Below, one piece after another: positions 398-21,049 of a stretch of 64,000 bases of DNA (position 1 is its first letter; every line of letters begins with the position of its first letter). Below the pieces are notes generated by a model that was not told the origin of the DNA, ran no database searches, and saw only the letters and a program-made list of their open reading frames with translations. Both the position numbers and the translations under genes were made by a program. This DNA is from an uncultured Caulobacterales bacterium (GTDB lineage: Bacteria; Pseudomonadota; Alphaproteobacteria; Caulobacterales; Maricaulaceae). The stretch spans positions 124,001 to 188,000 of the forward strand of contig CANNER010000001.1 in NCBI GenBank assembly GCA_947503715.1. Reading direction: 5' to 3'.

Positions 398-3300
398 CTA
401 TTCCGCTTGCGGAATTGCGACCGGGCGTGGCGAGTAGTTTACATGTTTCGGCGTAAACGGCACGCGGCGCTTGCCCTTGATGACATAACCGAACCAGCGG
501 CGGATATCCGCGCCAATCCCGTAAAGCGCCGGGACGAAGAACAGCGTCACGAACAGGGCGAAGAGTACGCCAAAGGCCAAGCTGATACCAATCGGGATGA
601 GCCACTGCGCTTGCAGCGAGCGTTCCAGCAAGAGCGGCATCAGGCCGACAAAGGTCGTTAGTGAGGTCAGCAGGATTGGACGGAACCGCTTGGTCCCTGC
701 CGTGATCAAAGCTTCCGCCCCGTCCATGCCCTTATCGCGCAATCGGTGGACATAATCGAGTAAGACAAGGTTGTCATTCACCGCCACCCCGGCGGCGGCA
801 AACATCCCGAGGATGGAGAGCAGCGACATCGTGCGGTCCATCACGACATGACCCATAATCATCCCGCAATAGCAGAAGGGAATGGCCGCGAGGAGAATCA
901 GGATCGGCTCACCATAGGATTTGAATGACACCGCCACGATGAAATAGGCCACCCCAATCGCGATTAGCATAAGCGTTAGGAGCTCGGCTTGGAACTCGGC
1001 TTCCTCCTGCGCGCCGCCAATATTACCGCGCGTGACATTGGGATGAATTTGCTCGAAATCATTGAAGAAGTTCTCATCCAGGTCTGTCCTGATTTCACCA
1101 ATACGCTCGGACACGACTTCCGCCGAGACGATAATGGCGCGCTGGCGTTCACGTCGCAGGATACGGTTCGTGCCGGGCTCGAAGCGGAGCTCTGCCACCG
1201 TATCCAGCGGGACCTCGCGTCCATCCGCGGCGCGGATGCGTACGGATTTCAGGAAGTCGAGTGACTCGCGATCAACGGCCGGATAGCGGACATAGACCCG
1301 CACATCCTCGCCGTCGCGAGGTAGGCGCTGGACCTCTTCGCCAAAGAAACCCTGACGGATTTGCCGCGCGACATCTGCCGTTGTAATTCCGAGGGACTCT
1401 GCGCCGGGCTTAAGGTCGAACTGCACTTCCTCGGATGCGCTCTCCATATCATTGACGACATTGAACACACCGTCATAGCTCCGCAATTGCGCCATCAAAT
1501 CGTCGGCGGCGGCTTGGAGATCGTCAAAGGATTTGGCGTTCAGCACATATTGGATGGGCGGGCCGTTATTTCCGTCCTTGTAGTTCACGGTAATCGTTTC
1601 CGCGTCCGGCACATCGCCGATCAACTCGCGCAAACGTTCTGCTGTTTCCTGCGCCGTCAATGTCCGCGTTTCGGGCGGCACCAATTTGACGAGGGCGAGC
1701 ACATTATTATCGCGGGAGCGCGTATACCAGTTCTCGATCAGATCGCCGTCCTTAGCTTTGATCTCTTCAGAGAGGTCATGTTCCGCGTCCTGAATTTGCG
1801 CGAGGACCTGTAATGTCCGCGTATAGGGCGTGCCTTCCGGCAGGCTCACGCTGATCTCGACCTGATCACTTTCCGACTCCGGGAAGAAGGAGGATTTGAC
1901 GTACCCATTGGCAACAACGCCCACAGTCAGGATCATGATACCGAGGAAGAATGACGCCGTCAGGTAACGTCGACGTAAGGCCCAGGTAATTGCCGGACGG
2001 TAAAGCTGCGTCGCAACCCATGTCAGGCTGTTGGCGATTTTCGCCTGTACCCGCATAATTTTACTCTTCGGATTGACGGGTTTCAAGTGCGCCAAATGGG
2101 CGGGGAGAATCAGAAGGGATTCAACCAGACTGAAAAACAGCGCGAGGATCACGACGAGCGAAATTGCCCGCGTAAACTCACTCGTCCCTCCGGACAAATA
2201 CATCCACGGTGCGAAGAAAATCATCGTTGTCAGAACGGCGAAGATGACGGGCTTTACGACCATGCGCGTCCCATTAATGGCGGCCTCTTCACCCGTCTCT
2301 CCGTCCTCCGTTTTCGAATGAATGGCTTCGCCCACAATAATCGCGTCATCCACAATGACCCCGATGACGAGCAGAAAGGCGAAGGTCGAGATCATGTTAA
2401 ACGACACATCAAAGAGCGGCAGCAGCGCTAATCCACCCGCAAATGCGGTCGCAATTCCAACACTTACCCAGAGCGCGATGGCGGGCCGCAGGAACAACAT
2501 GAGCGTTGCACAGACGAGCAGAAGTCCCGTGAAGAAGTTCACGGCAATCGTGCGGATCCGTCCGCGATAGTCATCCGCGGCATCGTTCCACGTCGTGATC
2601 GACATACCGCTGGGCAGTGTGCCGTCGACCTTTTCCAGATAGGCTTTCACATTATCGGACATGGCAACAATATCCATTTGCGGGCCGTTCTGGACCTGAA
2701 TGAGTATTGTTCGTTCGCCATTAACTGTCGCCAGCAGATTGACCTGTTCGAACCCGTCAATAACGGTGGCAACATCCTTCACGCGGATCAGGGCCCCATT
2801 GGCACTCTGCCGGATGACGATATCTTCGAAATCCTCTTTTGAGTCTGCCTGATTCCGTGTGCGGAGTTGCATATTCCCGATTTCCGTTCGCACGGTTCCG
2901 GACGAACTGTTCACTGATGTCCCGCGCACGGCCTGCGCGACCTCGTTCAGGGTCAGACCATAGCGCCGCAACGCATCCTCGGAGACCTCAATCGAAACCT
3001 CCTCATTCCGCGTGCCGAAGAGTTCCACGGCGGGGACGTAGCCCAGTAGGGCGATCTCCCGCCGTGTTTTTTCCGCAAACCGTTTCAGTTCCCGCTCCGA
3101 GACGGTCTCGTCACCCGTGAGGGCGAGGCGGATCATCTCGTTGCGATTCCTGAAAACATTGGTTTGCGGCTTCTCGGCCGCCGGGGGGAATGAATTAATT
3201 GAATCGACCTGACGTTTCACGTCCGCCATCAGCTTGGCTTCATCGACGCCGTTTTTGCCGACGACGGTGACGGAACCACCTCCTTCGCCCGCAAAGGACC

Positions 3301-19061: not shown

Positions 19062-19090
19062 AAAAGGCCCCTTCATGGGGCTTTCTTTTT
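19062..19090 (+). terminator. Rho-independent terminator after sdhCDA
   Basis: AAGGCCCC pairs with GGGGCTTT (with a G-U wobble) around the loop TTCAT, followed by CTTTTT. It lies 22 bases after the sdhA stop and should end the sdhCDA transcript before the BlaI-type repressor gene. Confidence 0.85.
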
Positions 19091-19160: not shown

Positions 19161-19198
19161 TTGACTTATGGCGACACATGTCACCATATAGTGACATG
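19161..19198 (+). promoter_or_regulatory. Promoter and BlaI-type operator overlapping the repressor start codon
   Basis: A perfect inverted repeat, CATGTCAC-N6-GTGACATG (19177-19198), ends in the ATG (19196) that is the best start of the repressor gene. TTGACT at 19161 fits a -35 box, and CATATA (19185-19190), the centre of the palindrome, fits a -10 at 18-base spacing. That places the transcript start at about the ATG itself, so the message would be leaderless and the repressor would cover its own -10 box. The ACATGT core resembles known BlaI/MecI operators. Confidence 0.6.
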
Positions 19199-19573
19199 AA
19201 ACCGTCGCCGTCTGAACTCGTCATTCTAAAACATCTCTGGTCCCATGGGGCGCAGAGTGTTGGGGAGATCCATCGGGCGGTGAGTGAGGCGTTGGGCTGG
19301 TCGCGCTCGTCTTCTCGCAAGACGGTGGAGCGCATGGTGGAGAAGGGGTTGTTGAGCCAGCGGGAGCTGCACGGTCTGAACATATACAGCGCCAAGGCCA
19401 AGAAAATCCCGACCCTCGCGGCAATGATCCAAAATTTTGCATCGGACGTGTTAGGGCTGGACGGCCCGCTCCCTGTTTCAAACCTCGTGAAGAGCCAGCT
19501 GCTCTCAGCGGACGAACTCGCGGAATTGGACGCGGTTCTTAAAGCCGCCGCTAAAAAACAGGCGGGTAGTTAG
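19196..19573 (+). CDS. BlaI/MecI/CopY-family transcriptional repressor
   Basis: 125 residues from the ATG at 19196; an ATG at 19178 would add six residues but lies inside the operator. The winged-helix domain spans about 5-75 (PSPSELVILKHLWSHGAQSV, then SRSSSRKTVERMVEKGLLSQ), with a C-terminal dimer region of the BlaI type. In bla/mec systems the repressor is cut by an M56 membrane protease to switch genes on; here the adjoining gene encodes exactly such a protease. The stop codon abuts the next ATG with no gap. Probably autoregulated through the palindrome at its start. Confidence 0.88.
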   Translation: MKPSPSELVILKHLWSHGAQSVGEIHRAVSEALGWSRSSSRKTVERMVEKGLLSQRELHGLNIYSAKAKKIPTLAAMIQNFASDVLGLDGPLPVSNLVKSQLLSADELAELDAVLKAAAKKQAGS

Positions 19574-20992
19574 ATGGCATTGATCTGGAGTTTTCTGCTG
19601 GCGATGCTGTCTGTCAGCGGCGTGATTTGGGGGCTGAGTACTCTGTTCCGATTTGCAGATAAACGGGTCGAACAATGGCCGGCTCTCTGGTCTGTAGGTT
19701 TGAGCCTTTGTGTTGCGATTCCATTTTTGGGGCTGTTGCTCTTATTACTTCCTAATCCGGGCTCTTATGACGCTCTCGCAGTGTTCTCATTACATGAACC
19801 GCTTCAATCCATGGGACTTCTGTCCGACGAATCTCAAACCGGGGCGGGCGAGTTATATGTTTGGAATATGACCACCGTGATGAAGGGGGTCTGCGCTATT
19901 TATAGTCTGGGCGTTTTCTTATGCCTCATGAAACTTGCCATTGGACGATACCGCCTTCATGAAATTATTCATAAAGCCGACTGCGCTGATATTGCGGGTC
20001 AGGATGATGTACTGGTCTCGCCGCATGTTCAGTCACCCTTTGCGTGGACGCCCTTCGGCCAACCCAAACATTCCCGCATCATCGTGCCCGAAAGCTATCG
20101 CGGCGTGGTCAGCGAGGCGGACCTGCTGAATATTCTCATTCATGAACGCGCCCATATTACGCGACGGGATGATGAATCCGGCCTTGTCCTACGTGTCCTG
20201 CTTTGCCTCTGCTGGATGTCGCCCTTCGCGCATCGCCTCTTTGCACAGTGGAGTCAGGCGACCGAAATTCGTTGCGATATGGCGGTGACCGCCCATCGTG
20301 ACCCCGACATGCGGCGCGCTTATGCGGAAACTCTTTTGCAAGCGCTCCACATAGCGGCGGGCCGGGTACGGCAATACCCGGCCGCCTCCTTCTCAACCCA
20401 CCGTATAAGGAACGAAAAGATGAGAATTAGACATATTATGAATGGCACGCGACCGAGTTACAAGCGGGGGCGGGACCGCCTTCTGCTGGGATTGGCGGCG
20501 TCAATTGTTACCGGAGTTGGAATGCTGACGGTGTCAGAAACGGCAAGTGCCGACCCTTCGGCTAAAAAGGGCGACTGGAATTGGGTCTCGACCGATATGG
20601 TCTCAGGCCGCTTGACCGCCAGTTTCGGACAGAGCTTTGATCCTTTCAAAGACGGCGAAACACGCGATCATTATGGAATCGATATTGCCGCGCCCACCGG
20701 AACACCCATTTATGCACCGGCTGGTGGCACAATATTACACGCGACGACGCTCTATGACGGTAAGCCCAAATATGGCACGGTCGTCGTATTCGAAGCCGAA
20801 AACGGTATCGTGACCCTGTTCTCTCACTTAGAAGGCTTTAACGTAGAAGCCGGGCAACGCGTCTGGAAAGGGGATCAACTCGCCACAATTGGCAATACGG
20901 GAAAAAGCACAGGACCGCATGTTCATATTGAGACTTTTAAAAACGGCACACGCGTTGATCCTGCGATTGTCTGGGATATTCGCACCCCGTAA
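19574..20992 (+). CDS. Fusion of M56 (BlaR1-type) membrane protease and periplasmic M23 endopeptidase
   Basis: 472 residues. Hydrophobic helices lie near 1-25, 38-62 and 105-125, then a region with the zinc motif HERAH (190-194) and EIRCDMAV, as in the cytoplasmic BlaR1/MecR1 protease domain. A further helix at about 298-318 precedes a complete M23/LytM domain: His366 and Asp370 in HYGIDIAAPTGTPIYAP, His418 in FSHLEG, and His449/His451 in GPHVHIE, so the zinc and catalytic residues are all present. BlaR1 has a penicillin-binding sensor in this outer position. The layout suggests that wall peptide binding or cleavage outside signals inside to cut the adjacent repressor. M23/M56 fusions exist in databases; a defined function is not known to me. 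Confidence 0.85.
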   Translation: MALIWSFLLAMLSVSGVIWGLSTLFRFADKRVEQWPALWSVGLSLCVAIPFLGLLLLLLPNPGSYDALAVFSLHEPLQSMGLLSDESQTGAGELYVWNMTTVMKGVCAIYSLGVFLCLMKLAIGRYRLHEIIHKADCADIAGQDDVLVSPHVQSPFAWTPFGQPKHSRIIVPESYRGVVSEADLLNILIHERAHITRRDDESGLVLRVLLCLCWMSPFAHRLFAQWSQATEIRCDMAVTAHRDPDMRRAYAETLLQALHIAAGRVRQYPAASFSTHRIRNEKMRIRHIMNGTRPSYKRGRDRLLLGLAASIVTGVGMLTVSETASADPSAKKGDWNWVSTDMVSGRLTASFGQSFDPFKDGETRDHYGIDIAAPTGTPIYAPAGGTILHATTLYDGKPKYGTVVVFEAENGIVTLFSHLEGFNVEAGQRVWKGDQLATIGNTGKSTGPHVHIETFKNGTRVDPAIVWDIRTP

Positions 20993-21049
20993 TTTGTTTT
21001 CTGACTTACCCTATTGGACTCGGCCTTGGTCGGGTCCATTGTCGTTTAT

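Follow-up and report, generated by a model that had tools for sequence, protein, structure and literature searches.

A BlaI-type repressor beside an M56 protease-M23 endopeptidase fusion: a candidate autoregulated switch for a wall hydrolase in the Maricaulaceae

A stretch of 64,000 nucleotides from an uncultured Caulobacterales bacterium of the Maricaulaceae (GenBank assembly GCA_947503715.1, contig CANNER010000001.1, positions 124,001 to 188,000; hereafter the window), part of a genome of 3.15 Mb, carries a two-gene unit in which a BlaI/MecI-family repressor gene is followed without a gap (TAG-ATG, the BlaI stop directly abutting the ATG of the next gene) by a gene for a 472-residue membrane protein that combines an M56 protease domain with an M23 wall endopeptidase domain. 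The reading that we favor, at a probability of about 0.55, is that the pair forms an autoregulated switch of the BlaI/M56 type, with the M23 hydrolase as its output and probable shedding of that enzyme into the periplasm. A first-pass annotation of the same DNA had proposed a BlaI/BlaR1-type pair with a periplasmic M23 domain that takes over the role of the drug sensor. The pair and the placement of the M23 domain are supported by the present analysis; its role as a sensor is not borne out. The evidence leans instead to M23 as the predicted regulated product, on account of its conserved catalytic residues, the disordered and variable linker that precedes it, a signal-peptidase-like AxA motif after the last membrane helix, the lack of any other zero-mismatch operator, and the presence in five related genomes of a third gene encoding an M23 lipoprotein.

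Open reading frames (ORFs) and Pfam matches to Penicillinase_R, M56 and M23 place both genes where the first-pass annotation had put them (Table 1). The window BlaI belongs to the BlaI/MecI family (Penicillinase_R, E 4e-18, 66.3 bits against a gathering score of 22.6), and matches the Protein Data Bank (PDB) entries 1p6r (a penicillinase repressor, E 0.00065) and 2k4b (E 0.00012). Its translation probably begins at the ATG of 19196 rather than at the start of the longest frame, 19178, because in the orthologs L006 and L007 the frame is interrupted by a stop after the upstream start-like codon and before this ATG. The pair is preceded by a gene that we call sdhA, a name read from its translation without a family search, and the terminator-like hairpin after sdhA makes the pair probably a transcription unit of its own; the consensus scan for terminators found 5 such sites in the whole stretch, against 2.2 (standard deviation 1.5) in shuffled sequence.

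Table 1. Features of the gene pair and its surroundings (positions in the window)
Feature	Position	Strand	Basis or remark
Terminator-like hairpin 3' of sdhA	19064..19084	+	stem of 8 pairs (5 G-C), T-rich tail; consensus match only
-35-like TTGACT in the promoter of the pair	19161..19166	+	TTGAC invariant in 6/6 aligned orthologous promoters
Candidate BlaI-type operator, dyad 1 (GGCGACA-CA-TGTCACC)	19170..19185	+	sole zero-mismatch GGYGACRNNTGTCACC site in the window genome
Dyad 2, with one half-site in common with dyad 1; ends in the start codon of BlaI	19177..19198	+	11-nt arms, 91%; palindrome of the first-pass annotation
BlaI/MecI-family repressor, 125 aa from ATG 19196	19196..19573	+	Pfam Penicillinase_R; longest ORF 19178-19573
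472-aa M56-M23 fusion protein with four membrane helices	19574..20992	+	ORF, Pfam, structure model
HERAH zinc motif, residues 190-194, in the cytoplasmic M56 domain	20141..20155	+	aligned to S. aureus BlaR1 (8exp)
Ser272-Phe273, spaced like the BlaR1 self-cleavage bond Ser283-Phe284	20387..20392	+	83 residues past the His that opens HExxH
Last membrane helix (TM4), residues 299-325, KRGRDR just before	20468..20548	+	model helix
AxA signal-peptidase-I-like motif ASA, residues 324-326, end of TM4	20543..20551	+	A324/A326 invariant in 5/5 orthologs
M23 wall endopeptidase domain, residues 343-470	20600..20983	+	complete zinc/catalytic set
Terminator-like hairpin between the pair and rarA (MgsA-type AAA+ gene)	21015..21038	+	consensus match only

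The M56 domain has the features of a BlaR1-type protease. Pfam recognizes it over residues 85-272 (E 1.3e-21, 77.5 bits against a gathering score of 31), and the HExxH motif and the third ligand Glu are present, with the zinc and catalytic residues H190, E191, H194, D199, E231 and D235 kept in all 49 aligned M56 rows. The structure model matches BlaR1 across residues 4-278 in both fold and membrane topology. In the accessible parts of the respective papers, the M56 loop of Bacillus licheniformis BlaR1 is described as a zinc protease activated by self-cleavage (PMC3356374), and BlaR1 self-cleavage is placed at Ser283-Phe284 (PMC9834060). At the position equivalent to the window Phe273, the 49 rows have F in 32, another residue in 12 and a gap in 5; the loop 267-277 around it is modeled with a predicted local confidence (pLDDT) below 50. 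The C-terminal penicillin sensor of a BlaR1 receptor proper is lacking: Pfam finds no penicillin-binding domain in the fusion protein, the NCBIfam model blaR1_generic gives 44.2 bits against a cut-off of 400, and the M23 domain occupies the place of the sensor.

The M23 domain is complete. Its Pfam match spans residues 365-463 (E 9.7e-29), and it combines the HxxxD and HxH set with the M23 fold; the residues H366, D370, H449 and H451 are invariant in 17/17 and 15/15 fusions of two alignments, with H418 replaced by Q in one row of each. The motifs which the first-pass annotation had listed for the two domains, HERAH and H366/D370/H418/H449/H451, are thus all as claimed. The loop before TM4 bears 4-7 K/R residues in 5/5 orthologs, and the loop charges fit an arrangement with the N-terminus out, M56 in and M23 out. 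Together with the BlaR1-matching model of four helices, they predict a periplasmic M23 domain in the position of the penicillin sensor, as had been proposed, and do not support a cytoplasmic one. Between the M56 and M23 domains lies a stretch that ranges, helix included, from 38 to 293 residues across fusions, and the linker is disordered in the structure model; such variability, with inserts, speaks against rigid coupling of the two domains. The inserts seen in some fusions are ankyrin-like or TPR-like, as recognized by eye.

At the end of TM4, the alanines of the AxA motif are invariant in surroundings that vary among the five orthologs. More broadly, AxA follows TM4 in 35 of 40 fusions, many of them close kin and hence not independent counts, against 21.2 +/- 2.6 of 40 (maximum 30 in 2000 rounds) when the post-TM4 residues are shuffled; this set leaves out the broken L103, L112 and L113 (the same proteins as L019 and L028) and four Lachnospiraceae fusions. 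Among the 29 fusions with a complete N-terminus, AxA is found after TM4 in 24 and after TM2, which crosses the membrane in the same direction, in 4. In the accessible text of PMC9834060, S. aureus BlaR1 is reported to be cut at the equivalent place by the signal peptidase SpsB, and its authors argue that this happens less after drug binding. Of the earlier suggestion that the M56 protease may release a wall hydrolase, the release is what fits best; the likely cutter would be signal peptidase and not the M56 domain.

Upstream of the pair, the six aligned promoters share TTGAC followed by three half-sites in alternating orientation that reach the start codon. Half-sites one and two form GGYGACR-NN-TGTCACC, the core of which is the same as the ACAnnTGT found upstream of more distant BlaI genes. 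An ACAnnTGT palindrome is what we take to be the classical operator type of BlaI/MecI repressors, and dyad 1 provides one in the pair's own promoter. The palindrome that the first-pass annotation had marked does exist as dyad 2; the operator common to relatives is, instead, the overlapping dyad 1. In G119, dyad 2 is perfect but altered in sequence. Across 39 related BlaI upstream regions, which include five BlaI genes with an M56 but no M23 partner and one genome twice, the ACAnnTGT core is present in 29 by a strict and 32 by a relaxed count, against 1.04 expected from single-base shuffling, and TTGAC occurs anywhere in 34. The core is absent from 7 of the 39, namely four belonging to the ankyrin-like-linker group and the three Lachnospiraceae regions examined.

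The reach of the repressor was assessed in 18 genomes of the genus with the pattern GGYGACRNNTGTCACC. It has five zero-mismatch sites, each upstream of this BlaI and in the 5 genomes that possess the pair, and no second such site in the window genome or elsewhere in the 18; as the pattern was derived from four of these promoters, the informative results are the match in G046 and the absence elsewhere. With one mismatch, the window genome has four dyad-1 sites, all inside ORFs. The dyad-2 pattern, searched in the window genome with at most one mismatch, gives four one-mismatch sites beyond the pair itself, of which three are in ORFs and one is upstream of a SpoU methylase gene. The conserved operator, and zero-mismatch sites confined to this promoter, strongly suggest that the pair is autoregulated, with no other strong target visible.

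The phyletic spread of the pair was examined at several depths. In a family scan of 137 genomes, 44 matched the fusion profile with E no higher than 1e-50, and 9 of 19 genera had a match; by row reading, 40 of the 44 have M56 and M23 in a single ORF, in one (G119) the fusion is broken between two contigs, and the remaining three have only M56. A first scan of named genomes found no fusion, while a second, with alignment, kept 80 of 87 loci and placed fusions in Algimonas, Erythrobacter, Kordiimonas, Aquisalinus, Hirschia, Robiginitomaculum, a metagenome-assembled genome (MAG) of Arenicella and, distantly, Lachnospiraceae. Class-wide, the fusion occurs in at least 2 of 385 sampled genomes, with up to 4 candidates scored per genome. 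Most M23 matches in the class-wide and named-genome sets had no M56 match and were set aside. BlaI lies upstream of the fusion at every locus with a readable flank (the flanks of L020, L021, L027 and L034 are too short to count) except L151, where none passed the search. Since pair and operator recur across genera, their association is more than chance. In a tree of 54 M56 domains, built by a quick method and with several long branches, the M23 label needs at least 6 changes most simply, 2 of them forced by starred branches, from which we conclude that the M56-M23 combination was gained or lost repeatedly. Furthermore, five genomes of one genus (L179-L183, fetched since a neighboring M23 match had shown there) encode an M23 protein of 189-198 residues with a lipobox, 51-122 bp behind the fusion.

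Individual loci depart from the common layout in several ways. In Aquisalinus flavus (L111, 3504-7068), one BlaI precedes tandem M56 genes; the leading one lacks M23 and has a lipobox after TM4, and the other is an M56-M23 fusion. The Erythrobacter ani locus (L103, 5980-7421) has its M56-M23 gene in two overlapping frames, by frameshift or sequencing error. A Hirschia MAG (L110, 5476-8049) has about 390 extra residues after M23, in which there is no Pfam domain. The four Lachnospiraceae (Firmicutes) fusions (L116, L151, L165, L168) have a stronger TM4, no AxA, and BlaI upstream in 3 of 4.

From the gene pair, the conserved operator, the two catalytic sets and the topology, we infer repression, BlaI cleavage and shedding as the steps of a circuit. 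BlaI dimers would bind the GGYGACA-NN-TGTCACC operator, which lies close behind the -35 box and extends into the start codon, and hold down expression of both genes, a step for which the conserved DNA argues strongly. To judge from the conservation of its active site and fold, a stimulated M56 protease would then cleave BlaI within its C-terminal part, in the manner of BlaR1; for the stimulus, wall stress is the obvious guess. Derepression would raise the M56 protease and the fused M23 endopeptidase together, and signal peptidase I would probably cut after Ala326, so that a soluble hydrolase is shed from the signaler into the periplasm. The circuit would thereby set the dose of one wall-cutting enzyme.

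A number of observations weigh against this account. The consensus promoter scan called no promoter at 19161-19166, and no good -10 box is visible. One-mismatch GGYGACRNNTGTCACC sites number 91 against 28 for the reversed control (both strands of the 18 genus genomes, the pair's own sites included), with more sites than the control in 14 genomes, equal numbers in 3 and fewer in 1, and the excess extends to genomes without the pair; weaker targets and compositional bias cannot be told apart as its cause, and a flat claim that nothing else is regulated was dropped on this account. On the side of proteolysis, Tyr250 is Tyr in just 39 of 49 M56 rows, and the presumed BlaI cleavage site, its position taken from the accessible text of PMC9834060, reads SN-LV in the window, with Leu where many relatives have the Phe of SA-FA and S. 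aureus also has Phe. BlaI and M56 distances are correlated (r 0.78, n=32; the largest of 2000 permutations gave 0.22), as is expected of neighboring genes even without a functional tie. As to the third gene, a terminator-like hairpin, seen by eye, may separate it from the fusion in L181, and L196, a further locus of that genus, lacks the gene. As for shedding, apart from the kinship among the 40 rows, AxA is missing in 5 of them and in all four Lachnospiraceae fusions, and it is shared by 12 of 18 M56 proteins without M23, a count from which L197, which has no TM4, and L218, the truncated fusion from G119, are left out; two of the M56 proteins without M23 have a lipobox. The AxA carriers include an M56-TonB protein and its relatives, which are expected to remain anchored. 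AxA does not, then, single out the M23 fusions, and that idea was rejected; the site seems to come with the M56 scaffold and would here free a hydrolase.

The principal competitor, which we regard as possible at rather long odds, makes the M23 domain the sensor: while attached to the membrane, it would engage wall peptides or crosslinks and alter the M56 domain across the membrane, hydrolysis being secondary. It has in its favor the location of M23 where BlaR1 has its sensor and the repeated changes of the M23 label on the M56 tree, as the coupling may be useful in itself. Moreover, the sensor site of BlaR1 receives its extracellular loop EL1, and drug binding is argued to protect the receptor from signal peptidase (PMC9834060, accessible text); the fusion model has a loop of similar length at residues about 59-90. 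On the other hand, a disordered linker and an interdomain stretch of such variable length, with unrelated inserts, would make for poor mechanical coupling, a cleavage-like site follows TM4, the catalytic residues are retained where binding alone would suffice, and BlaI also pairs with M56 proteins that have short or other C-terminal parts. Somewhat more doubtful still is a merger of sensor and effector, in which the attached M23 reads crosslinks via its substrate, M56 destroys BlaI, and signal peptidase turns receptors into free hydrolases; were it true, shedding would be both output and off-switch, in a closed loop that doses the hydrolase to its own substrate.

We consider it improbable that the signal comes mainly from inside the cell, with wall fragments made by M23 being recycled to the cytoplasm and binding BlaI directly while M56 acts as a modulator. 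A wall-derived dipeptide is reported to bind BlaI/MecI and weaken the DNA complex in B. licheniformis (PMC3305447, accessible part), and the pair would indeed regulate a wall hydrolase; the fully conserved zinc and catalytic residues of M56 argue for proteolysis as the main route. We assign very little weight to the idea that the pair answers beta-lactams and directs resistance from other sites of the genome: the family likeness to BlaI/BlaR1 and the possibility of weaker operators elsewhere have to be set against the absence of a penicillin-binding domain, the blaR1_generic score below cut-off and the lack of a second zero-mismatch operator in the genome. An accidental fusion, by which an M23 autolysin came to share promoter and membrane anchor by chance, seems just as hard to credit. 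The C-terminal parts of M56 proteins are certainly modular (TonB, coiled coil, nearly none), and the fusion has a patchy presence in 40 of 137 genomes; it recurs, nonetheless, in distinct M56 clades and has preserved its catalytic residues and operator, and five genomes carry an M23 lipoprotein gene in addition.

The genes around the pair differ by lineage, being Elm1 and GreA genes, sdhA and rarA, or unidentified genes; a functional link to neighbors was rejected, as no partner is common to the listed loci. Within the genus the sdhA-rarA interval is variable: it holds the pair in G000 and G058, and both flanks are present without the pair in G045, G055, G056 and G057. In G053 (L254, about 2901-3200), a BlaI fragment 65% identical to the window BlaI stands at a contig end, and the expected position of the M56-M23 partner is taken by a histidine kinase gene on the opposite strand. 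The window genome has two further BlaI genes, each adjoining an M56 gene without M23. One (L198, 3270-5656; contig C1 near 905 kb) has two operator-like ACGACAATTGTCGT copies and adjoins a gene for an M56 protein whose C-terminal part is long and charged, next to an outer-membrane-receptor-like gene (weak Pfam matches). The other (L197, 3912-5281; contig C1 near 225 kb) has two operator-like ACAnnTGT sites and a 316-residue M56 partner that stops shortly past the protease domain.

BlaI pairs with M56 proteins lacking a penicillin sensor thus recur in the family, and here the periplasmic part is of a known enzyme type; with its own operon as the only strong visible target, both input and output of the switch can be assayed. 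The favored reading would make the BlaR1 machinery a general device of wall homeostasis, drug resistance being one of its uses, and would suggest that shedding of a C-terminal domain by signal peptidase can be an output, beyond mere turnover. The accessible part of a review records M23 proteins with an M56 domain, less than 1 percent together with other combinations, and notes that a role of M56 in wall cleavage is not demonstrated (PMC9662197). In the literature searched, which lay outside most subscription papers, we found no description of the pair as a system or of what M56-M23 proteins sense. This agrees with the first-pass annotation, which had called the fusion recorded in databases and had known of no described pathway.

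Among known systems, the closest are BlaI-BlaR1 and MecI-MecR1 of staphylococci and Bacillus licheniformis, which share with the window pair a repressor adjoining an M56 membrane protease, the fold over residues 4-278 and identical catalytic spacing. Judged against the accessible text of PMC9834060, the likeness extends to a candidate Ser-Phe bond at the self-cleavage spacing and a signal-peptidase-like site after the last helix. The palindromic operator of ACAnnTGT type is a further point in common. Unlike them, the window system has an M23 endopeptidase instead of the penicillin sensor and no second zero-mismatch operator in the genome; it resembles BlaI-BlaR1 in its predicted working and, for want of the sensor, falls outside the BlaR1 receptors proper. 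With M23/LytM peptidases of the StM23, DipM, ShyA and MepM type it has in common the fold and the H-D/H/H-H set; these enzymes are usually secreted or lipoprotein autolysins, whereas the M23 domain of the window stands at the end of a signaling protease. The BlaI pairs with M56-TonB and other M56 proteins in the same bacterial family agree with it in the pairing, the operator type and, often, AxA after TM4, and differ in a C-terminal part that is TonB-like, a coiled coil or nearly absent.
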